Notes under the pieces: model-generated
Databases searched by the model: none
Seen by the model: only the letters and a program-made list of their open reading frames with translations
Told to the model about the DNA's origin: nothing
Program-made: the position numbers and the translations under genes
In this document: positions 8,157 to 40,592 of the stretch, piece by piece
Numbering within the stretch: the first letter of the stretch is position 1
How the letters are laid out: every line of letters begins with the position of its first letter
Origin: Symbiodinium natans
Taxonomy: Eukaryota; Sar; Dinophyceae; Suessiales; Symbiodiniaceae
Assembly: GCA_905221605.1 (NCBI GenBank)
Contig: CAJNDS010000102.1
Location: forward strand, 310,001 to 374,000
Length of the DNA: 64,000 nucleotides
Direction of reading: 5' to 3'

Positions 8157-8798
8157 GTCGCACAAGGCGAAGAATGCTGGTGGAACTTGATGTTGCAAGT
8201 CTCCCGCCTGTGATTTGTGCTCGTTGTCGCTGATCTGGAGAACAGGAACGAATCCTGATGGCAGCAAACGGCATTCACAGTAGCTGCCGACGGGGCCAGA
8301 GGACATCCTACAGCGGTGGTATTGTGCGAGGTCGTGTTGGCAACAGCTTTGCAGCCGGGCGTGGTCGTCGTTTCGTGTAGTCGTCGAAGCACACTTCGTC
8401 ATCGTAAAGCTACAGCAGCAAATGCCATAATGTCACCCATGTTACTACTCTGAATATTCTTCAAGGAACTTTGCTGGACATGGGTTAGGATGGCCATGGC
8501 GAGGTACCCTCTGTATCAGGCTTGCCAACAAGACACGACAAACCCTAAACAACAAACCCCACGAGCCATCAACCCCACGTCCTTGCCTGAAAGGCGTCCT
8601 GTCTTTGCAGACTTGCCCTTCCTTGGTAGCCCAGCAACCATATTGTGATAAGGGCACCCTTTTTTGCGGTTGGTTATTTTATAAGGGAAACCATAAATCA
8701 AAAAAAAGTAAAGGGTACCACTGGGCTACGAAGCTTCACGTTCAGCCCTTTGCCGGTGCCGTGGCCGTCCATCATCTTGGAGATGGCGTCAGCCTCAG
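8157..8798 (-). CDS. Three exons of a conserved dinoflagellate-type gene
   Basis: Exons 8798-8738, 8621-8587 and 8254-8157 join in phase and spell, across both junctions, MMDGHGTGKGLNVK then GKSAKTGRLSG then FVPVLQISDNEHKS. I recall a very similar string in many dinoflagellate predicted proteins but cannot name the family. That recollection is what makes this splice model strong. Intron 1 (8737-8622) is an inverted-repeat element plus one copy of its 4-bp duplication and starts GA. Intron 2 (8586-8255) starts GC. Both end AG before G. The first exon is preceded by CCCTAGACCCTAGACAG, the end of the telomere-type block at 8804-8908. A continuation may use DNA near 7960 and 7488-7740. Confidence 0.7.
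8622..8733. mobile_element. Inverted-repeat element family B forming an intron
   Basis: Terminal inverted repeats CTTGGTAGCCCAGYAACC and GGTACCACTGGGCTACGAAG, flanked by the direct repeat CTTC (8618-8621 and 8734-8737). On the minus strand one duplication copy supplies the GA donor and the element end supplies the AG acceptor. A second copy with a different 5-bp duplication is at 18192-18299. Confidence 0.75.
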
Positions 8799-31255: not shown

Positions 31256-31266
31256 TGAAATGTTCA

Positions 31267-31396
31267 TCCAAGGACTCGCCTTAATCGACGAAGGGCTTGC
31301 CTTATCGACGAAGGACTTGTCTTGTTCGACGAAGGACTTGGCTTATTCGACGAAGGACTTGGCTTATTCGACGAAGGACTTGGCGTATTCGACGAA
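31267..31396. repeat. 21-bp tandem repeat next to (TA)n
   Basis: About six units of CGACGAAGGACTTGGCTTATT, the last copies nearly identical, followed by a (TA)n run at 31412-31442 just left of the LTR element. Confidence 0.9.
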
Positions 31397-31463
31397 TTCA
31401 TTAGGGTTTAAATATATATTTATATATATATATATATATATACATATGAAGAGAGGTTTAGGG

Positions 31464-31750
31464 TACGGGGGGACAACCAAGGAAGGAAATCAACTCCCCT
31501 AATCGCCCTGAACTTATATTTCCCAGATCGAACCAAGAAACAACCAAGAACACGGATAAGAGCAACCCAGGGGGGAAGGAAAGGGGGAAGGAACCCACAC
31601 CCTTACCAAACCCTAAGAACCCAGGCACTTCTTTTTGAACTTGTGGCTTTCTGTTCAAGCCCATCTTGAGCCAAATACGATTACCGGGTTCATTAACCCT
31701 TCCAACTTCCAACACTAACTCCTTTCTACAATACCAATTGCAGCTCCGCA
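31464..31750 (-). repeat. 3' LTR of the LTR element (minus orientation)
   Basis: 287 bp, 286 identical to the other LTR. On the minus strand it is preceded by the purine run AGGGGGAG. Confidence 0.95.
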
Positions 31751-31765
31751 CTCCCCCTGTCCTAG
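31751..31765 (-). other. Polypurine tract
   Basis: The minus strand reads ACAGGGGGAG immediately before the TGCGG of the 3' LTR, the expected site of plus-strand DNA priming. Confidence 0.75.
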
Positions 31766-32120
31766 GATTTCCTAGGACACATTGGAGATGCAGATCTTTT
31801 GGCCAAAAACTGCCATTACGGCAGCAGCCAGCTGCTTGAAATGCAAATTGTGGTTTAACGTCTTCCAGGACGGAATTATAGCACATTGGCTAACCTACTA
31901 CCCATAGAGAATCTTTTTTCACCTTGATCCTCTCATCACTGAAGACTCCTTGGCCTTCTTCACCACAAACCGTGGTCTTCGCTACGCGAAAAGCTACTGA
32001 CTCCTACTATCAGGGATTTCCATACCCTTAATAGTAACCGCCACATTGTCAGCACATTGGCTGTTCCAGCGCACCGGTCTCCAGAAAGAGAAAAACCATC
32101 CCTTCATCCATACCATCCAA
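31766..32120 (-). other. 3' untranslated part of the LTR element
   Basis: About 355 bp between the ORF B stop and the polypurine tract with no supported ORF. The octamer CCAATGTG on the minus strand occurs here at least twice and again near both ORF boundaries. Confidence 0.6.
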
Positions 32121-35100
32121 TCACTTCTTTTTCCGATTGTTGGCAATCTTGAGGTGAAGTTGCAGCAGAATATACTCCAGGTCCGAAATCGTAAGAATAG
32201 GATCCTGTATGCCCCTTTGAATTGAGGATACCAATCCTTCTCTCTTTGCGTCCTCAATCGCCTGGCAAGATTGACCCAGCTCTTCATTCGCATTGGCAGA
32301 CCCTGGTGCCTCCGCATCGGATGGACGATCCTTTTCCTCAGGATCTTGCACCATTACCACCTCTTCTTTTTTGGGACTCTGACTTTTCTCCTTCTTCTTT
32401 GTCTTTCCACCGACATTTGACTTTGTGCGCGTCTTCGAGGATTTTTCCACTGCAGAAGCCACCACATTGGATGTTGATCCACCCTTCTCAATGATCGTCG
32501 GCATCTTCTTCGGCTTTGGAACCATGAGAGTGTAAGGATCTTCGATAGCTGCAGCTTTCCTCTTCTTTTTTACCTTTTTCTTCTCTTCTTCAACGGCAAC
32601 CTCCGTCTCCGAAGTCTCAACCACTCCTTTTTCGGCAGGAATATCCTTGCTGGACTCCCTTTCTAGGGATCTCTTTTTACCTCTTTTGGGATCCTTTTCC
32701 TCTCCCAAATTGGCTCGCTCATACCATATCCTCAGGTCATTGACCCATTCTTCCACCTCCGCGAGCGAAACCTCATACGACTTCACTACTTCGAGAAGTT
32801 CCAGCACGGACAACATTTCAGTGGTCCACGAAACCCATACTTGATCCATTTGGTCAGCATCTCCAGTGAACTTCAGGAGTTTGAACAATGGGTCCGCCTC
32901 TGCTCGAGCCAAATCTGGCTTGCCACCGGAGAGAAATGAAATCGCCTCCATCAACAGTTCCGTCATCTTGGTCTCTTCGTCATAAACCATAAAATCCTCC
33001 TCATCATCATCGAACTGTTCAGGAGGGATCTCCTTTTCTCCACCATTTGCACCAGACTTTCTCCTTGGACCATCCCTTGGGGGCGTCCTTGGAGACCTTG
33101 GCCTCTGTTTTTCCAACGGAACACCATGCTCGAAGACACACCTGTCACCAAATCGACACTTCCCAGACCGAGCAAACTGGACGCACCTCACACCAGTTGC
33201 ATCATGCGAGAACCCACAATCCTTTCCAGCGAAACATTCTCTCCCTGCCACATAGTATTTGCACCAATATGAATGTAGCACCACATCATCTTCGGAATGG
33301 ATGAATTTGCAGTCGTCACCGAATTTGCAGCGATCTTTCCCCCTGCCGAACCAATAGCAGAAACCCTTCTTCCTCTTCTCCAAGCGCTCTGCCTCATACC
33401 GGTCCATAGGGCGATTGTGCTCTACATGAACATTGCCATGTACCTGGGGACTGCTCCCTTCACCCGACGTGCTATCAGTATTTGGTGCTTGGAGTACAGC
33501 TGGAAAACCTGGCCTTGGTCCTACCACCTTCATGATCGGTTTTCCGCCAACTCCTGAGCCATGCTGAGACGATCCAAAAACATTGAACATCTTCATGAAG
33601 GCCTTCCTAGCGCCAATCTTCTGCACCCTTTTGATTGGACGTTTCATTGCTCCAACCTTGCATCCAGATGCATTCAAACGACGCAACCTTCTAAACCCAA
33701 CTCTATGTCCCTTCTTCCAAAGAGCCATAAGAATTTTAGAGGCAGTAACATTCTCCACCTCTACCTTTTCCAATGATCCCTCACTTCCCGGAACAAACCC
33801 ATCCATATCTGAAGACCTTTCCATCTTTTTTGACACCACTTCGTCGAGGTAGTCTTCTGAAATCCAGGGAAAGTTCCCCTTAGAGGAAGGATTGTCATCA
33901 TTGTTTGGTCCTTCACCAGGATATCCTTTGGTGCTGTCAAAGATCTTACCAGTAGTGCGGTCCTGCATAGAGAAATTCGAAGCCACGCGGGAGTACACTG
34001 ACCACAAGAAAATCCTTGTGTCCGCCAGTCTGGATGACCCACTGGATTTCTCCTCTTCCGGAGAAACTTCTGGCGCTTTGCCCTTCCCTCCAGTGTCACC
34101 GCTTGTCTCACCTCCAGCATCTTCAATGGGAATAAGGGATTCATTGTTCCCTTGATCAAGCACCGCATCCTCTAGTCCAAGAACTTCCAGCATCGCTGTC
34201 GAAGGATCCACCTCCTCATCCGCATCGTCGTCCATCCTTCTCCAGAGAGCCTCCAATTGGTCCGCACAAGTCGCCGCTTGAAGAAACTCCATCAACCGAG
34301 CCCTCCCGCGCTGCCAGAGAAATTCTGAAACCATCACCGACCCTTGTGCTCCCAGATTCAGGAATGGGTGAACCATTTTGGCTACCCTCGCCATAAGTTC
34401 AATATGAACTTCCATGCCTGGACTGCGGCTCCAATCATAGGCAATTGCCTCCATAGCAGTACCAAACTTGTCCGTATTCTTGAATTCCCCTTCCAGACCA
34501 GGAGACAACAAGGCACCCATCACCGAAAGAGGGTAATTCCCCACCGCCGGCAAGCACGGGTTGTCATGGAACGAATGATGCAGGTCAGTATAATATCCTT
34601 GATCTCTCCTTTGAAAAAGGAGTGTTCCAGTCCCTAGCTGGGCATTCATTTCATCCACTTGTACCATTTCAGCACATATCCTCTGTGCCAGGTGCGCCAT
34701 TGCTGGCCAGACGGTACGATCGGTCAGACCGCGACGCATAACCCAATCAGTTGTTGGCGACTGGATCAGCGTTCCTGGATCATACACCATAACCATTGCA
34801 CCGTCTCCCATTGACTGATCAGCATCGTCCTCCAGTGCCAGGTTCTCATCCTGTTCGCTTGCACCCTCGGATGACATGCTAATAACCAAATTTCGATCCA
34901 TCTTATTGGACCCTTTTTGGCAATCTCTTTGCCCCATTGGCAACTTGCCAACTGCAACCTTCCAATAAATTCGAGTCAGAAGGCCTTTCACCAGCAATTG
35001 CTGAAGGTCACTCCTCACCGGACCACCATCCAACATCTTCGCATCATTACCACGGAGATCATTGCTCCCGCCTTCTCCTTCTTTTTGGTCGGTCTCCTCG

Positions 35101-36368
35101 CCAGAAATCTGTACTGCTCCTTCCGGCGCCGTCTCCTGTCCAGCCACTTCATGCCCAGGAAGAACTTGAGCGCTTTCAGAGACATTCACCTGTCCAGCAG
35201 CACCTTGCCCAGGTAAAACCTCATCCGTGGAGCCCACCGCCAGCGAACCAACCATAACTGAACCATCCCTTGTTCTTTTTTGAGACCGTTCAGCTCGACG
35301 AGAAGGTTGTGGTAGCGAAAAAACTTGTGAAGTCACTTCTTGGCGGGTCTCCCCCCGCGACGCTTTGTCGCGCCCTTCGCCAAGGTGAACCGATTTTTTC
35401 GGCCCATCATTGGAGCCTGAAGAACCACTTTGTGGAACATTGCCACGACTCGCAGTTCTCCACGAATCCCTTTCTTGCAAAAAGAGTTCCTTCAGGCGTT
35501 GTACCGCATTGGTCTCCTCCTCGCTTGAATCGCTTGAGGAAGCGGCATACGAGACCAAAGCCTCCGCCTGGTCATCATCATCCACCACATCTGCCCACGC
35601 TCTGCTGAATGGATACGACAAACCACCACGAGGTTTCACCGGCTCCAGGGGCTTCGGTTTTTCCACCACTTCCGCCAGTTGCACTCGTCGTTGTGACCGA
35701 GATCGTGGCACCTGTCGCACCTGTTTTTTGTCCAGCAAGGGCCTTCCCCTTCTTACAGGGTTTGATCTTGACCGATACTTTTTCGTTGGTGGATTCACCG
35801 GCGGCATTCCAACTCCCACCAACCGCAGCTTCTGTACGCACAACGGAGACCTCTGTGCAAGCGTCCAACCATCACGGTACCTGACCTTATCAAAAAGCTC
35901 CCGATAGGAACCTCTCGGCATAGTTTTTGCACCGGAGTCTTCAGCTTCACGCACCTGAGTGAGGGTTCGCACCGCCGCTCTTCCAGTCCCTTTGTTCCCA
36001 GAAGATTGTTGTACCCGTACAGATGCATCAGAAGGAACTGCCTTTTCCGGTCCTCCCGGTCGATATCGGACCTCACCCACCAATTGCAGAATTTTGCATG
36101 CGGTCACTTTGTTGATCCCTTTGTCAACCAAATCTTCCACAAAGATGAACTCTTGCAAGTCCGACACATTGGTCACACCAAGCGTAATCATCACCTCACT
36201 TACATGAGGGGTATACACCCACAGGTGTGCGTTGCGAGCCATCCAATTTTCAATCGGCTCCTCCGGATTGTGAAGCTGAGTACTAGTGGATGCAGCCACC
36301 GAATTCTTTTGCTCATCAGCTTCTACTTCATCCAGAATATCCTTTTTCACCATCTTTTTGTGACACAT
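32121..36368 (-). CDS. ORF B of LTR element: three CCCH fingers, no pol domains
   Basis: It has 1415 codons, overlaps the end of ORF A by 41 nt and lies in its +1 frame. It therefore needs reinitiation, leaky scanning or a +1 frameshift unless separately spliced. A helical segment at ~40-100 is weakly SAM-like. A conserved-looking globular part spans ~525-720. CCCH fingers lie at C1004-C1014-C1020-H1024, C1036-C1045-C1051-H1055 and C1062-C1071-C1077-H1081. Next come a basic linker and an acidic/helical part at 1125-1230, and the C-terminus is rich in K and E with KKKVKKKRK, a likely nuclear signal. The three fingers are evenly spaced like a single RNA-binding array. Nothing resembles protease, integrase, reverse transcriptase or RNase H. 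Confidence 0.8.
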   Translation of the reverse strand: MCHKKMVKKDILDEVEADEQKNSVAASTSTQLHNPEEPIENWMARNAHLWVYTPHVSEVMITLGVTNVSDLQEFIFVEDLVDKGINKVTACKILQLVGEVRYRPGGPEKAVPSDASVRVQQSSGNKGTGRAAVRTLTQVREAEDSGAKTMPRGSYRELFDKVRYRDGWTLAQRSPLCVQKLRLVGVGMPPVNPPTKKYRSRSNPVRRGRPLLDKKQVRQVPRSRSQRRVQLAEVVEKPKPLEPVKPRGGLSYPFSRAWADVVDDDDQAEALVSYAASSSDSSEEETNAVQRLKELFLQERDSWRTASRGNVPQSGSSGSNDGPKKSVHLGEGRDKASRGETRQEVTSQVFSLPQPSRRAERSQKRTRDGSVMVGSLAVGSTDEVLPGQGAAGQVNVSESAQVLPGHEVAGQETAPEGAVQISGEETDQKEGEGGSNDLRGNDAKMLDGGPVRSDLQQLLVKGLLTRIYWKVAVGKLPMGQRDCQKGSNKMDRNLVISMSSEGASEQDENLALEDDADQSMGDGAMVMVYDPGTLIQSPTTDWVMRRGLTDRTVWPAMAHLAQRICAEMVQVDEMNAQLGTGTLLFQRRDQGYYTDLHHSFHDNPCLPAVGNYPLSVMGALLSPGLEGEFKNTDKFGTAMEAIAYDWSRSPGMEVHIELMARVAKMVHPFLNLGAQGSVMVSEFLWQRGRARLMEFLQAATCADQLEALWRRMDDDADEEVDPSTAMLEVLGLEDAVLDQGNNESLIPIEDAGGETSGDTGGKGKAPEVSPEEEKSSGSSRLADTRIFLWSVYSRVASNFSMQDRTTGKIFDSTKGYPGEGPNNDDNPSSKGNFPWISEDYLDEVVSKKMERSSDMDGFVPGSEGSLEKVEVENVTASKILMALWKKGHRVGFRRLRRLNASGCKVGAMKRPIKRVQKIGARKAFMKMFNVFGSSQHGSGVGGKPIMKVVGPRPGFPAVLQAPNTDSTSGEGSSPQVHGNVHVEHNRPMDRYEAERLEKRKKGFCYWFGRGKDRCKFGDDCKFIHSEDDVVLHSYWCKYYVAGRECFAGKDCGFSHDATGVRCVQFARSGKCRFGDRCVFEHGVPLEKQRPRSPRTPPRDGPRRKSGANGGEKEIPPEQFDDDEEDFMVYDEETKMTELLMEAISFLSGGKPDLARAEADPLFKLLKFTGDADQMDQVWVSWTTEMLSVLELLEVVKSYEVSLAEVEEWVNDLRIWYERANLGEEKDPKRGKKRSLERESSKDIPAEKGVVETSETEVAVEEEKKKVKKKRKAAAIEDPYTLMVPKPKKMPTIIEKGGSTSNVVASAVEKSSKTRTKSNVGGKTKKKEKSQSPKKEEVVMVQDPEEKDRPSDAEAPGSANANEELGQSCQAIEDAKREGLVSSIQRGIQDPILTISDLEYILLQLHLKIANNRKKK

Positions 36369-39300
36369 TGGTCATTTGCAGCGCTTTTGGTGCCGAGGAT
36401 GAGGAAGATTCAGCTCCCCCACTCGCAGGTGGCTGAAAAGTGCTTCTATCCGTAAGCTCCCATCCTCTCTCTTTTTCAAACCGGACCTGATTGGCCACCT
36501 GTACCAAGTGTTTCAGGAGCGACAGCCGCTCCTCTGACATCTCGTCATGGGAGTACTTGCAGAAATTTAACCCTTTCCGGCAACGTCCTCTGAGGTAATA
36601 ATCGAAACAGCAATGGTGGAACCCTGCGTCCCTTAGTGACTTCCTGGAAGCATTGTCCCAAGCTTTGCCGGGCTCCCAAGTCCCTTCCAATGCTACATCA
36701 TCGTTGTGAAGGTACCTGCATGCAGTCCCATATTTACAACCACCTTGATTGTAATACAGACACAGCCGACCTTTTGGCTCACCCGACGTAGGCTCACCCT
36801 TTGATGCACCTTTGCCAAAATTGTACTTGGCCCGGAAGGCTAAATCCTCCTGCTCCTGCTGTGCCTCATCCACTGTACCTTCCTCTGTGGGAGGGTCACC
36901 GATGTTCCCGTCCTCATCATCAGCTTCTTGGCTATTCTTTGGATCAGTTGACCCCCCTTCTGGCCAACCTTCACCGTACCGACGATGCTCGTAGGGACAC
37001 CCATCGCCATTGCGACACCTTCCCTTATTGAAGAACCTGCACAGCTTGCTGTAACCAGGTGACAACACCGTCTTTGGTGTCATATAAGCCTTTTTGTACT
37101 GGTCAGGATCCATGTAGGCTTCCATTGGCTTGTTCTCCCTTTTGCTCATGGATTGCACTGCACCATCAAGCTCCTGCAAAAATAGCTTGGTGTCCAACCA
37201 AAGCGCGTTCCAAAACTCATCTTCCCCTTGATTCAGCACCGTTGCACCCACAACTGGTCGAGAAAATCTCCTTTTTCTGCATGCCAGTTCGAAAAGCGCG
37301 TTGTGGTACTGTTTTCGGGAAAAAGTGGTTAACTTCCCCAAGCCTGTGCTTTCTGTACCATCAGGCTTCCAACCATCATTTTGCAAGATGCCATACGCGC
37401 GCCGAGCTTCCGCATTGAGGAATGCCTGATCCGCAACACACTCCTGTAAATCTTCCATCGGCCGACCTAACAGCATCCCAGTAATTTTGCCAACATAGGC
37501 TTCCTCTTCATTTCCATTCTCCAGAAGAGCTTTGTAGATCTTTTCTCCATAAAGTTGCCTTTCTTTTCGTTCTTCAGAAGACAACTCCTGTACCACAAGC
37601 TCTTCATCGGATTGCTCTTCCTCCTGTTTCCAGTCCCATTGACCGTTGGAATCTTGGTACCATTGACCAGCATACCATGAATCCGTCCACCACGTACTCC
37701 AGCCGCTGGGTTTCCACTTCCGCAGCGTCGAAGAAGAGTCCTCCACGTCCTCTTCCAAAACCAGAAAGGTGTCCAAGATTATGGTACCATCATCTTCCAC
37801 TCGTTTCACTGTTCCATTGACAGTATCACCAAACTTGAACTGATATGCATTGTTCCCTTCTGCAGGAATCAATACATTCATATCCCCATGGTCCAAAAAG
37901 GCTCCATACCCATTGATGCAGCGCACTAGACCCATGATCTCATCTCCCTCTTGATAGCAATGTGGCCCAGGTGACTCCAAGGCTCCCGCTCGGGGCACTT
38001 TCTTTACACGCTCTTCAGAAACCATCTCTGTATCATCGGCTCCTGGCGCATCCTTTGTCTTCACCTTTGGGTCACACTGCTCGTCCTGCTCCACGAGTCC
38101 CACAAGCTCATCTTTTTTGTGCTCCTGGATTTCAGGACCTCCCTTTTTCTCCGCCAACGGCTTTGCCTCATCTGCTGTAGTTCGCTCGGTGTCGACTTCC
38201 GGTGAACTTCCAGACGGCAACGCTTCTCCCTTCATGGGAGTGGACCCATCATTGGAGTCCTTTGTCTCACCTTCTGCAGCAGGCAAATCTTCTTCCACTG
38301 CAGGGCAATTGAGTCGATCATCCACGGCAGGCACGCTTTCTTCCACCGCAGGCTCCTTTGGTTCCATGGCCTCCAAAGGAGAATTTCCACCATCATTGAC
38401 TACAGCTGCCTCATTGGCTCCGGTGTAGCCCTTGTCATTTCGTTCCTCGCTGCTAACTTCAGGTTGCACCAGTGCGTCCACCTGTGAACCTCCATCATCA
38501 GCTGCTGCGGAGACCTGCGCCCCATTGTTGCAGTCGCCCGTGGAACGTACCACCACATGCACCTCAACCCGTGCTTCCTTCGCACTCCAGGTAATATCTG
38601 GCGCATCAACCCGCGCATCATTGGCGCTCCAGGCCTCATTTTTCAGATCATCCGTGTCTCCAGCTATTCCAGAAGCTTCTTTTTCCCTTTGAATGGCAGA
38701 ATTCTTGGCACCAAACGAAGAGACCTCCTCAGTCGTAACACACAACTTTTTCTCTCCATCCTCCGAATCTCCAGGACCACCTTCCTGAACAACAGGTACC
38801 ACATCCACCACTCGCTCTTCTGCAGCCGACACAGTTCCGATCACCTCATTGGGCATTTTCTCTTCTGGATCCACCAATTCCATCGCTGCCCCACCCTCAG
38901 AAAGCGCTTCTGTTTCTTCCCGATCCAGGTGTTGAGCTCCAGCGATGTTGGCTTGGTTCCCAGGAATCCCTTCCTCATCAGGAGAACCCGAGGTCGGGGC
39001 GTCACCATCAGCCCTAGGACCGCTATCCCTGATAGTAGAGGAAAAATCTTTTTCACCTAAACTATTTACACTACCCTGGAATGCCCTCGTAGACTCAGTC
39101 TTCGGAGTAGAGGATGAAGAATCCAGTGCCGCCTCCATTTCCAGCTCATTGCCCAAAGGAGACCCAACCACCTCGTCACTCTTCACCTTTTCACCTACCA
39201 CCGGCAATGTCCACTTGGTTTCGTGCGTATCCAGGCAGTAATAATATTGTCTCCCATCTTCATGGAGGTGCAATTCCCACATTGTGCCATCACACGCTTG

Positions 39301-39948
39301 GATCAGATGCTCGTCTTTCCGAAAACCGTCCCTTTCAGAAACCTGTCGCATCTCGTCCTCTTCTTCTGACAGCTGTCGCAACCGTTCAGCCTCCATCTGT
39401 AGGATCTCCTCCTCCCCCATGGCGTATTCAGCAGCAGGTGCAGCTTCAAAGCCGTCCGCACCCTTCTGTTTGTGACCGCTTCCACCACCTTGGGAACTCG
39501 AAGATGGACCCTTTTTGATCTTGTTCAACGGCCTCCTGGTCGCTTGTAGCACTTCTCCAATCAGATCGGTCTGAGACTCTTGGTCTACCATTCGACCCGA
39601 AGTCGAAGACGACGGCTGGTACCCGTGTTTGTGTAACACTCGTAAAACAGTCACCTCCATTTCACGATCTATGCCACCAGTCGCATCCCAGTTCCTTTTT
39701 TCACCAGGCTTTGGCGGTACAGAAACAGCACGTCCTTCAGCTTCAGCATTGCTAACCATATCCCTATTGGGATTCATACCCACATTGGGGCTTTCTGCAA
39801 CCAAGGCCTCTTCCAGATGTTCTTCAGCGTCGGGAATCACCTCTTCCAACACCGCTCTTTCACCCAGAGACTCAGCTGCACCATTTCCAGCTCCACCATC
39901 TTGTCCACCATCCGAGGCAAGTTGGAGCCATCGCTTCGGAGAAGGCAT
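36328..39948 (-). CDS. ORF A of LTR element: WW, S1, MLLE-like and three CCCH fingers
   Basis: About 1206 codons from the first plausible ATG, 54-66 nt after the primer-binding site. Segments in order: acidic low-complexity N-terminus; WW-like segment ~220-250 (W224, Y235-Y237, W246, P249); long acidic repeats 250-640; S1/OB-like segment ~664-732 (GLVRCINGYGAFLDHG); W-rich stretch 743-775; MLLE/PABC-like segment ~797-859 with the hallmark GKITGMLL; CCCH fingers at C970-C978-C984-H988 and C1063-C1071-C1077-H1081 (C-x7-C-x5-C-x3-H), and C1114-C1123-C1130-H1134 with longer spacing. MLLE domains bind PAM2 peptides in mRNA-decay and translation factors. Position suggests a Gag-like role in RNA packaging. 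The domain calls are by eye. Confidence 0.8.
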   Translation of the reverse strand: MPSPKRWLQLASDGGQDGGAGNGAAESLGERAVLEEVIPDAEEHLEEALVAESPNVGMNPNRDMVSNAEAEGRAVSVPPKPGEKRNWDATGGIDREMEVTVLRVLHKHGYQPSSSTSGRMVDQESQTDLIGEVLQATRRPLNKIKKGPSSSSQGGGSGHKQKGADGFEAAPAAEYAMGEEEILQMEAERLRQLSEEEDEMRQVSERDGFRKDEHLIQACDGTMWELHLHEDGRQYYYCLDTHETKWTLPVVGEKVKSDEVVGSPLGNELEMEAALDSSSSTPKTESTRAFQGSVNSLGEKDFSSTIRDSGPRADGDAPTSGSPDEEGIPGNQANIAGAQHLDREETEALSEGGAAMELVDPEEKMPNEVIGTVSAAEERVVDVVPVVQEGGPGDSEDGEKKLCVTTEEVSSFGAKNSAIQREKEASGIAGDTDDLKNEAWSANDARVDAPDITWSAKEARVEVHVVVRSTGDCNNGAQVSAAADDGGSQVDALVQPEVSSEERNDKGYTGANEAAVVNDGGNSPLEAMEPKEPAVEESVPAVDDRLNCPAVEEDLPAAEGETKDSNDGSTPMKGEALPSGSSPEVDTERTTADEAKPLAEKKGGPEIQEHKKDELVGLVEQDEQCDPKVKTKDAPGADDTEMVSEERVKKVPRAGALESPGPHCYQEGDEIMGLVRCINGYGAFLDHGDMNVLIPAEGNNAYQFKFGDTVNGTVKRVEDDGTIILDTFLVLEEDVEDSSSTLRKWKPSGWSTWWTDSWYAGQWYQDSNGQWDWKQEEEQSDEELVVQELSSEERKERQLYGEKIYKALLENGNEEEAYVGKITGMLLGRPMEDLQECVADQAFLNAEARRAYGILQNDGWKPDGTESTGLGKLTTFSRKQYHNALFELACRKRRFSRPVVGATVLNQGEDEFWNALWLDTKLFLQELDGAVQSMSKRENKPMEAYMDPDQYKKAYMTPKTVLSPGYSKLCRFFNKGRCRNGDGCPYEHRRYGEGWPEGGSTDPKNSQEADDEDGNIGDPPTEEGTVDEAQQEQEDLAFRAKYNFGKGASKGEPTSGEPKGRLCLYYNQGGCKYGTACRYLHNDDVALEGTWEPGKAWDNASRKSLRDAGFHHCCFDYYLRGRCRKGLNFCKYSHDEMSEERLSLLKHLVQVANQVRFEKERGWELTDRSTFQPPASGGAESSSSSAPKALQMTNVSQKDGEKGYSG

Positions 39949-40000
39949 TGCTTCTTGATCCCAAAACCTTGAAAGAACACTTAACCGCAGGGAACCTAAT

Positions 40001-40014
40001 TTGGGCTCATAACC
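40001..40014 (-). other. Primer-binding site, half initiator-tRNA-Met type
   Basis: The minus strand directly after the 5' LTR reads GGTTATGAGCCCAA. This complements the anticodon stem-loop TGGGCTCATAACC of yeast-type initiator tRNA-Met rather than a tRNA 3' end. Drosophila copia primes from the same part of the tRNA (established knowledge). Confidence 0.8.
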
Positions 40015-40301
40015 TACGGGGGGACAACCAAGGAAGGAAATCAACTCCCCTAATCGCCCTGAACTTATATTTCCCAGATCGAACCAAGAAACAACCAAGA
40101 ACACGGATAAGAGCAACCCAGGGGGGAAGGAAAGGGGGAAGGAACCCACACCCTTACCAAACCCTAAGAACCCAGGCACTTCTTTTTGAACTTGTGGCTT
40201 TCTGTTCAAGCCCATCTTGAGCCAAATACGATTACCGGGTTCATTAACCCTTCCAACTTCCAACACTAACTCCTTTCTACAAAACCAATTGCAGCTCCGC
40301 A
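40015..40301 (-). repeat. 5' LTR of the LTR element (minus orientation)
   Basis: 287 bp, minus-strand ends TGCGGAGC...CCCCGTA. It differs from the 3' copy by one base (A at plus 40283 versus T at 31732). The minus frame is open through the whole LTR into ORF A, although the ATG at its very edge uses a flanking base. Confidence 0.95.
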
Positions 40302-40592
40302 TAGGGTTTAGGGTTCAGGGTTCAGGGTTCAGGGTTGAGGGTTGCAGGTTTAGGGGTCCTTGAAGAGCTCCGAGGGCGGTCTCTTGGCACGCAGCCTGGC
40401 AGCTCGACTCCGAAACTCTCGGGTTTAGGGTTAGGGTTTAGGGTTTAGGGTTTGGGCTTAGGGTTTTAGGGCTTAGGGTTTAGGGTTAGGGTTTAGGGTT
40501 TTAGGGTTTTAGGGTTTTAGGGTTTAGGGTTTAGGGTGTAGGGGTTTTTCTGGCACCCGCATAGCTGGACGAGGGTTTAGGGTTTAGGGTTT
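40302..40592 (+). repeat. TTTAGGG/TTCAGGG blocks flanking the LTR insertion
   Basis: Blocks at 40302-40345 (with TTCAGGG units), 40424-40545 and 40572-40592, separated by short unique segments. The motif TTTTTCTGGCACCCGCATAG follows the second block. Confidence 0.95.

Follow-up and report, generated by a model that had tools for sequence, protein, structure and literature searches.

The 64,000-nucleotide stretch of the Symbiodinium natans genome analyzed here (the window; contig CAJNDS010000102.1) carries, in a TTTAGGG-type repeat, a non-autonomous LTR element whose coding region carries RNA-binding modules and no recognized pol. This raises the question of how such an element is copied and inserted, and what its long protein contributes. 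Coordinates are those of the window, and the features of the element lie on its minus strand.

Structure and identity of the element

The element (31464..40301, minus strand, read from 40301 to 31464) is bounded by direct terminal repeats of 287 nt. The 5' LTR (TGCGG...CCGTA; 40015..40301) and the 3' LTR (31464..31750) differ at one base (286/287 identical), and the target duplication CCCTA is present both on the 5' side (40302..40306), within the TTTAGGG-type repeat, and on the 3' side (31459..31463). A 14-nt primer site (40014-40001) can pair with the 5' half of initiator tRNA-Met, for which seven identical gene starts were found in the genome. The polypurine tract (31766-31751), which contains the conserved box CCTAGGACAGGGGGAG, adjoins the 3' LTR. 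Both sites are correctly positioned for a minus-strand element. The LTR anatomy proposed in a first-pass annotation was thus borne out, as near-identical direct repeats with a target duplication, a tRNA primer site and a polypurine tract are all present. The element is a young LTR retrotransposon without its own copying enzymes. No Rfam match at gathering scores was obtained anywhere in the window, and no relative of either open reading frame (ORF) was confirmed among viral contigs, in a search that may omit records very near this genome.

A single polyprotein with RNA-binding modules

Two long ORFs cover the coding region. The frame of ORF1 (36328..40302) opens inside the LTR, with its first Met at 39948, downstream of the primer site and leader, and is followed by ORF2 (32121..36368). 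These are the N- and C-terminal halves of a single polyprotein of about 2.6-2.7 kaa, broken in the window copy by a one-base insertion: at about 36340 it has an A that copy L049 lacks. Among the 33 copies scored, out of 2395 first-look candidates, 32 read through the joint in frame, and a programmed frameshift was rejected for this reason.

Pfam matches in ORF1 and ORF2 comprised CCCH, Torus and MLLE. No match to RVT, rve, RNase H or retroviral protease was detected in either at E<=1, so that the protease, integrase, reverse transcriptase (RT) and RNase H encoded by an autonomous Ty1/copia element were not found. A hidden pol in other frames was also considered; ten of the 12 other ORFs overlapping the element were scanned, and none had a Pfam match at E<=0.01. 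The MLLE/PABC domain (37375..37572; E 1.6e-6, over the cut-off) has the KITGMLL core and is conserved. As no RRM was matched in ORF1 or ORF2 at E<=1, the protein lacks the combination of RRMs plus MLLE that defines a PABP. Six CCCH fingers were located at 36985..37041, 36706..36762, 36547..36612 (the third, by spacing pattern only), 33297..33359, 33204..33263 and 33126..33185. The S1-like segment (37762..37950) is under the Pfam cut-off in the window copy (E 0.17). A WW-like segment (39202..39291) appeared only against PDB chains (best phmmer E 0.019, to a Prp40-homologue WW chain), Pfam WW giving no match in ORF1 or ORF2 at E<=1. The first-pass reading of a pol-less element with RNA-binding modules was therefore confirmed, with the CCCH fingers and MLLE solid and the S1 and WW assignments weaker.

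The MLLE domain is not confined to the window. All 150 candidate places scored, out of 551 in the genome, were over the cut-off; 43 lay in frames open for 2000 aa or more, and at one place the domain (42.8 bits) was found within an open frame of 2470 aa.

Selection on the polyprotein

The polyprotein was shown to be under purifying selection between lineages (dN/dS 0.22 over 1640 codons). Values were lower in the fingers, MLLE and S1 (0.11-0.18, with S1 at 0.18), and the C-terminal 1179 nt contained zero indels in 19 loci. Some young copies show no sign of such selection. Three of 16 further copies compared with the window copy had dN/dS of about 1.0-1.2, with 9-10 differences each, and indels were present in the C-terminal 537 nt of two of the 16.

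A Ty1/copia family with the same ends

An abundant pol-bearing Ty1/copia family, with frames of up to about 3.1 kaa, shares its termini, primer site and polypurine tract with the element, as expected of the partner of a non-autonomous Ty1/copia element. Also common to both are the leader start and part of the 3' untranslated region (UTR). From the end of the 5' LTR through the primer site into the start of the leader, 29 nt are identical in the two families, and the block joining polypurine tract and LTR is nearly so. The shared stretch of 3' UTR, polypurine tract and LTR start (31660..31890) is 80% identical (blastn, element 8412-8642 to L012). Outside these shared parts (ends, leader and 3' UTR), the element and a partner copy showed no DNA similarity at E<=1e-3.

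The partner represented by L054/L012 has LTRs identical over 218 nt and an RVT_2 match over the cut-off (E 5.2e-9). Similarity to DDE integrases was under the curated cut-offs (rve 0.0039, IS481 4e-8), and protease and RNase H were recognized by eye only, Pfam listing neither. A copia-like helper with shared LTR ends and primer site had been predicted in the first-pass annotation; its discovery supports mobilization in trans well. The first copia family retrieved (F6; L047/L048) was rejected as a helper because its primer site, TGGTAGCGGAGC by eye, is of another type (3' end of tRNA-iMet) and because it shares no significant DNA similarity with the element (best E 0.34).

Exact junction patterns occurred 521 times for the 3' end (polypurine tract to LTR) and 653 times for the 5' end, counts that take in both families, while reversed-pattern controls gave 0. 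The repeats thus have hundreds of further copies and are not a lone segmental duplication. The copy number of the partner can be inferred only indirectly, from the 653 junctions, to which both types contribute, and from 440 element-type leaders. Recombinants between the two families exist. The LTRs of L014 and L059, which belong to the element's coding class, group with the partner LTR L086 (support 100/97; 95-96% identical), and in L093/L095 the element ORFs are joined to partner-type 3' sequence.

Insertion into one register of TTTAGGG repeats

With LTR ends placed blind to the flank sequence, an end was located in 55 of 60 loci from both families. Two of these ends had been set wrongly, at a CCCGTA inside the LTR; the correctly placed 3' flanks were all TTTAGGG-type and in a single register (53/53). 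An exact 5-bp target duplication was present in 18 of 20 flank pairs (element, 16/17; partner, 2/3), including the variants CCCCA/CCCCA and CCCGA/CCCGA, and flanks differed between most copies. The two non-matching pairs, one of them from the partner, count against the explanation favored below. Element and partner have the same target choice and duplication length. Loci of other copia families contained TTTAGGG in 0 of 30 cases, a count not used as a control because these loci are mostly element-internal. We know of no other LTR element with fixed-register insertion into TTTAGGG repeats.

A spliced-leader-like motif in the LTRs

Both LTRs contain a motif resembling the spliced leader (SL) (40216..40238 in the 5' LTR, with its core GGCTCAAG at 40216-40223; 31665..31687 in the 3' LTR). 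The core is unchanged in all 14 sampled LTR lineages, while the sequence following it turns over. In other copia families GGCTCAAG was absent from all 30 loci, with the LTRs only partly covered. Such a motif could let trans-spliced RNA complete strand transfer.

There is close to an even chance that the box is instead a fossil of an ancestral retroposed mRNA, a core promoter or a splice acceptor, and not the start of the R region. Relict leaders are described as common in dinoflagellate retrogenes in two studies (PMC6050394, PMC12014239). The tandem GGCTCAAGGCTCAAG carried by the L079 lineage argues against the fossil or regulatory reading, as does the invariance of the core amid turnover. The 5' part of the box varies among lineages, which favors that reading and means that the true spliced leader is not copied exactly into the box in each cycle. 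The LTR type of the window agrees with the true leader at only 13 of 21 places.

Origin of the coding region

The polyprotein could be a strongly altered Gag of a gag-only (TR-GAG-like) element, with multiplied nucleocapsid fingers and a capsid that was replaced or is unrecognizable. The partner gag itself has an unusual CCCH finger adjoining a CCHC knuckle (0.0025 and 0.021 in Pfam, each under the cut-off), and the element's fingers resemble it, the fourth most closely (48% over 27 aa at E 3e-5; E 7e-5 and 2e-4 by hhalign). Only these fingers align well; outside them, comparisons with the partner gag, of which those by hhalign covered parts of the polyprotein, gave no convincing alignment and no shared capsid, and no Pfam gag family matched ORF1 or ORF2 at E<=1. 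Moreover, MLLE, WW and S1 are, to our knowledge, not usual gag domains. We consider a Gag origin unlikely.

Capture of host sequence, carried as a passenger with no role in the element, is disfavored and quite improbable. LTR elements are known to capture host genes, as in the transduction by maize Bs1 (PMC13317346), and the element's MLLE is similar to that of a host gene (E 1.4e-4) and can be aligned with two more. Identity to this best host MLLE is just 29% over 82 aa, and the three host loci gave no further match at E<0.01, the comparison with possible host parents taking in MLLE only. Also against a passenger are the constraint seen between lineages, which is purifying and strong in the predicted domains, and the long MLLE-containing frames at many genomic places. 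Derivation from the partner by internal deletion is disfavored and scarcely credible, as is a family of host genes flanked by LTR-like sequence and spread by segmental duplication. Recombinants with the partner exist and copies L006 and L007, with the same flank, may be segmental duplicates, but between the shared parts no DNA similarity to the partner copy was seen at E<=1e-3, and the target duplications in 18 of 20 copies, the flanks differing between most copies and the hundreds of junctions also speak against these readings.

Proposed mechanism

The element very probably belongs to a young, high-copy, pol-less LTR family of a dinoflagellate that is copied and inserted in trans by an equally young, specific Ty1/copia family with common cis-acting ends. 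The RNAs of element and partner would both enter the partner's particles, where its RT would copy them from the half-tRNA-iMet primer, and its integrase would send both cDNAs to telomere-type repeats. With less certainty, the roughly 2.6-kaa polyprotein may be the element's own ribonucleoprotein component, whose CCCH and S1 modules would bind element RNA, while partners of PAM2 or proline-rich type would come in through MLLE (and WW). Such recruitment might help the RNA encoding the polyprotein to be translated or to enter particles, a cis-preference that would account for the frame being kept open by selection. An MLLE domain that is conserved and has the KITGMLL core would be compatible with the first-pass proposal that the element may package or steer mRNA through PABP/PAM2-type contacts. 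Least certain is that the SL-like box in each LTR may be the start of the R region, in which case trans-spliced RNA would keep matching ends for the first strand transfer.

More tentatively, and on balance doubtfully, the two families could form a two-component system fitted to a trans-splicing host. The copia member would contribute the particles, the RT and an integrase with sequence specificity, for which interstitial telomere repeats would be a safe place to insert. From the pol-less member would come a selected RNA-binding protein (MLLE, S1 and six CCCH fingers) steering leader-bearing, polyadenylated RNAs into the particle. Both would have the host spliced leader built into the LTR, so that trans-spliced RNA could be reverse transcribed end to end.

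Comparison with known elements and significance

LARDs and TR-GAGs are pol-less, are thought to be mobilized in trans and have ends common to an autonomous family; LARDs are non-coding, whereas TR-GAGs encode a recognizable gag. The element described here is likewise pol-less with ends common to an autonomous family, but it encodes WW-, S1-, MLLE- and CCCH-type modules, and in place of the long internal region without coding capacity of a LARD it has long open frames under selection. Drosophila copia and other hemivirus-type Ty1-copia elements use a half-tRNA-iMet primer site. The element shares this site and its partner has a copia-type RT; unlike copia, the element lacks pol, its LTR ends are TG...TA and its LTR contains an SL-like box.

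Maize Bs1 is an LTR element with transduced host segments (PMC13317346). Both it and the present element are LTR elements with a chimeric ORF built of non-retroviral segments. What differs here is the product, an RNA-binding polyprotein (about 2.6 kaa) that purifying selection maintains, together with the presence of hundreds of copies and of an identified helper family that has common ends and a common target.

Ty5 is of the copia class, and TRAS1 is a telomeric-repeat-specific non-LTR element. Yeast Ty5 integrates into telomeric silent chromatin, guided by contact between integrase and Sir4p and not by DNA sequence (PMC4700185). Ty5 and the present element are both LTR elements with telomere-linked integration, but insertion here is into a single register of TTTAGGG repeats. 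SART1 is a non-LTR element specific for telomeric repeats (PMC7265360). Sequence-specific insertion into telomeric repeats is common to SART1, TRAS1 and the present element, of which only the last is LTR-type. Target sequence-specific integration has been characterized as almost exclusively a non-LTR trait (PMC3706591).

Three findings go beyond the first-pass annotation: the ORFs form a single polyprotein, insertion into telomere-type repeats has a fixed register, and the LTRs contain an SL-like motif. Selection maintains a huge RNA-binding protein, with modules other than those of gag, in an LTR element that has no pol, and a helper family with matching ends has been identified for this element. 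Its LTR-type integration is fixed to one base register of the telomere repeat, whereas traits of this kind have been reported almost exclusively from non-LTR elements. The SL-like box opens to direct testing how LTR elements complete strand transfer when the host exchanges the 5' ends of its mRNAs, and it also bears on the source of the many leader-tagged dinoflagellate retrogenes. If the two families do form a two-component system, host mRNAs could travel the same route, which would help explain these numerous retrogenes.

A polymerase-free LTR element and its copia partner

The element (40301-31464, minus strand) has the complete LTR anatomy proposed in the first-pass annotation. Its LTRs of 287 nt each differ at one base (286/287 identical), start with TGCGG, end with CCGTA and are bordered on each side by a CCCTA target duplication, and a polypurine (PPT) box adjoins the 3' LTR. 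The primer site immediately downstream of the 5' LTR, GGTTATGAGCCCAA, forms an unbroken pairing of 14 nt with the start of tRNA-iMet-like genes, of which the genome holds seven identical gene starts with TTGGGCTCATAACC closing their 40 nt. The site is of the half-tRNA priming type, the mode used by Drosophila copia. Just beyond the 3' LTR, 31264-31409 consists of tandem repeats of 21 nt (TCGACGAAGGACTTGGCTTAT).

No pol domain was detected by Pfam at E ≤ 1 in ORF1 (36328-40302) or ORF2 (32121-36368), in agreement with the proposed lack of reverse transcriptase (RT) and integrase, and 10 of 12 further ORFs scanned gave no match at E ≤ 0.01. ORF1 matched zf-CCCH/Torus (2.6e-11) and MLLE (1.6e-6, above the cut-off) and ORF2 matched zf-CCCH (2e-6), with three CCCH fingers per ORF by spacing pattern. 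The CCCH fingers and MLLE of the initial domain assignment were recovered, while S1 in the window copy stayed under the Pfam cut-off (E 0.17) and the WW-like segment matched only PDB chains (best E 0.019). An MLLE search of the genome, scored for 150 of 551 candidates, placed all 150 above the cut-off. By our count, 43 of these fall within frames of 2000 aa or longer, in which the score reaches 42.8 bits versus 28.4 bits for window ORF1; three, scoring 91 to 78 bits, are clearly of host type, and four of those scored lie in frames below 60 aa.

ORF1 and ORF2 are a single frame, because in 32 of 33 scored copies (the best of 2395 candidates) the ORF2 match begins at residue 6 or 7 within a longer frame; only the window's own copy is matched from residue 1. 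Frames of at least 2600 aa occur in 21 of the 33, one with an in-frame TAG, and the window copy carries a single additional A when compared with that at L049. At L049:8630-10000, the element match ends at element position 755 and gives way to an unrelated repetitive stretch (...FRRSVPFRRSV...), with no 5' LTR within the 1371 nt examined past this break.

The pol-bearing, copia-like partner anticipated earlier was identified as L012/L054, two loci of one element whose LTRs are identical over 218 nt. It has the PPT, LTR start, LTR end and primer site in common with the element, and a different C-terminus that is RT- and RNase H-like. Its RT matched RVT_2 (5.2e-9); the rve match was weak and under the cut-off (0.0039), as were CCCH and CCHC motifs in gag and resemblances of the integrase region to IS481 (4e-8) and IS3 (2.6e-5) transposase models. 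The RNase H assignment was made by eye in a piece for which Pfam lists nothing and which matches the polyprotein of F6, another copia family (E 2e-17). At the DNA level, element and partner resemble each other only in their LTR starts and ends, primer site, start of the leader and 3' UTR. A stop codon separates the two long frames of the L054/L012 copy; among 150 of 1002 candidates scored for partner RT (98-100% identity), several lie in frames of about 3090 aa. By eye, the partner polyprotein (L054:342-8399) also contains stretches resembling 2OG-Fe(II) dioxygenase (SLHRDSHNEKH) and DNA methyltransferase (GGPPCRTVSR), neither listed by Pfam at E ≤ 0.1. Elsewhere, at C1934:1258220-1258870, an RVT_2 match lies within a 4017-aa open frame, unusually long for a copia element.

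The genome contains 440 leaders of the element's own type, together with 521 exact PPT-LTR and 653 exact LTR-primer-site junctions for element and partner combined. Reversed-pattern controls for these counts gave 0. A sample of 20 copies from the PPT-LTR list, none matching earlier hits, comprised 16 element copies, 4 partner copies and none of a third class.

Insertion into telomere-type repeats

LTR ends were located without use of the flank at 55 of 60 loci; four of the other five had no exact junction (one reads N) and one had no exact end. In 53 of the 55, the end borders a TTTAGGG-type repeat, always in the same register: CCCTA, its complement TAGGG, or variants of these. The remaining two had been misplaced at an internal CCCGTA and fit on re-reading, in which the flank helped to choose the end. 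Since L007/L049 and L004/L052 are each the same copy, the 53 flanks represent 51 distinct copies, including the window's (L005). Some may be segmental duplicates, as the flanks of L006 and L007 are identical. Outside the element, 1.9% of positions in the window resemble this target within 2 mismatches, which indicates a genome rich in targets; the insertion register is far from chance. The window is very densely packed with interstitial TTTAGGG/CCCTAAA repeats: of 156 tiles of 350 nt outside the element, 71 contained 13 nt or more of a joined pair of units.

Both flanks were read in 20 copies, and an exact 5-bp duplication was present in 18 (element, 16 of 17; partner, 2 of 3), including the variants CCCCA and CCCGA, the same on both sides. 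The two copies lacking a matching duplication have flanks in opposite sense, as would be expected from recombination between copies. Neither fixed-register telomere-repeat insertion by an LTR element nor an LTR element with a WW/S1/MLLE/CCCH set was found among the titles and abstract starts listed for mostly non-subscription literature. Background literature comprised PMC11453091, PMC6050394, PMC12014239, PMC4700185, PMC3706591, PMC13317346, PMC11963269, PMC9498494, PMC6395649 and PMC7265360.

A spliced-leader-like box in the LTR

A core, GGCTCAAG, is invariant and in the same place in 14 LTR lineages (<93% identical), while the sequence downstream turns over. Compared with the dinoflagellate spliced leader (SL), the partner LTRs L072 and L092 match at 19 of 21 positions, L012 at 18 and the window's LTR type at 13. 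The core was not seen in 30 loci of other copia families, in which LTR coverage was partial. The 5' region of the unrelated family F6, rejected earlier as helper, contains TTTTGGCTCAAG, probably within the LTR; the end of this LTR was placed from the primer site. In the LTR of L079 the core is present twice, in a tandem GGCTCAAGGCTCAAG resembling a partial leader added twice. The exact leader followed by GT occurs 26 times in the genome, six of them on one contig (C479:102078-129889), where they form two runs at intervals of about 3.8 kb, a probable SL RNA gene cluster. Together with the TTTAGGG repeats, these leader copies point to a dinoflagellate. If the RNA were trans-spliced at the LTR box, R would start there.

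Exchange between element and partner

An LTR tree of 54 rows requires three label changes between the element and partner classes. L014 and L059, of the element class, cluster with partner copy L086 (support, 100/97) at 95-96% identity over the whole LTR. On contig C49, a version of the element ORFs (about 80% amino acid identity over most of their length) stands immediately after partner-type 3' sequence and is itself followed by an LTR start. In this chimera (L093/L095; C49:84751-93400), a partner RT match lies upstream of the partner-type 3' sequence, and the diverged ORFs have an internal gap (ORF2 416-745 absent). Furthermore, divergence of the LTRs within the element family is uncoupled from that of the coding region. 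The label changes, the chimera and this uncoupling are consistent with co-packaged RNAs and template switching.

Selection on the polyprotein and proposed mode of mobilization

Selection was estimated by the Nei-Gojobori method. No indels were present in the C-terminal 1179 nt at 19 loci, which comprise 16 distinct copies in addition to that of the window, and comparisons to the window with 10 or more differences gave dN/dS values of 0.14-0.66 (dS up to 0.23). Relative to the C49 copy, which is diverged and has one in-frame stop, dN/dS was 0.22 at a dS of 0.50 over 1640 codons, about 20 of them double-counted at overlapping pieces. By part, the ratio was 0.11-0.13 for CCCH, 0.13 for the ORF2 N-terminus, 0.15 for MLLE, 0.18 for S1 and 0.24-0.54 for the remaining stretches. 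Counting against selection, 3 of 16 further copies had ratios to the window of about 1.0-1.2, each on 9-10 differences, and 2 of 16 had indels within the last 537 nt. The partner C-terminus is more constrained (0.07-0.29 for four copies and L012) than that of the element (0.33-0.52 between lineages). We interpret this pattern as selection acting on the source lineages, with copies drifting once inserted.

The partner probably provides particle, RT and integrase, and the element probably provides the ends, the primer site and its own predicted RNA-binding protein, the modules of which point to binding of RNA and the poly(A) complex. Selection on a 2.6-kaa protein implies a benefit to the RNA encoding it, and this benefit may be the reason for keeping the protein.
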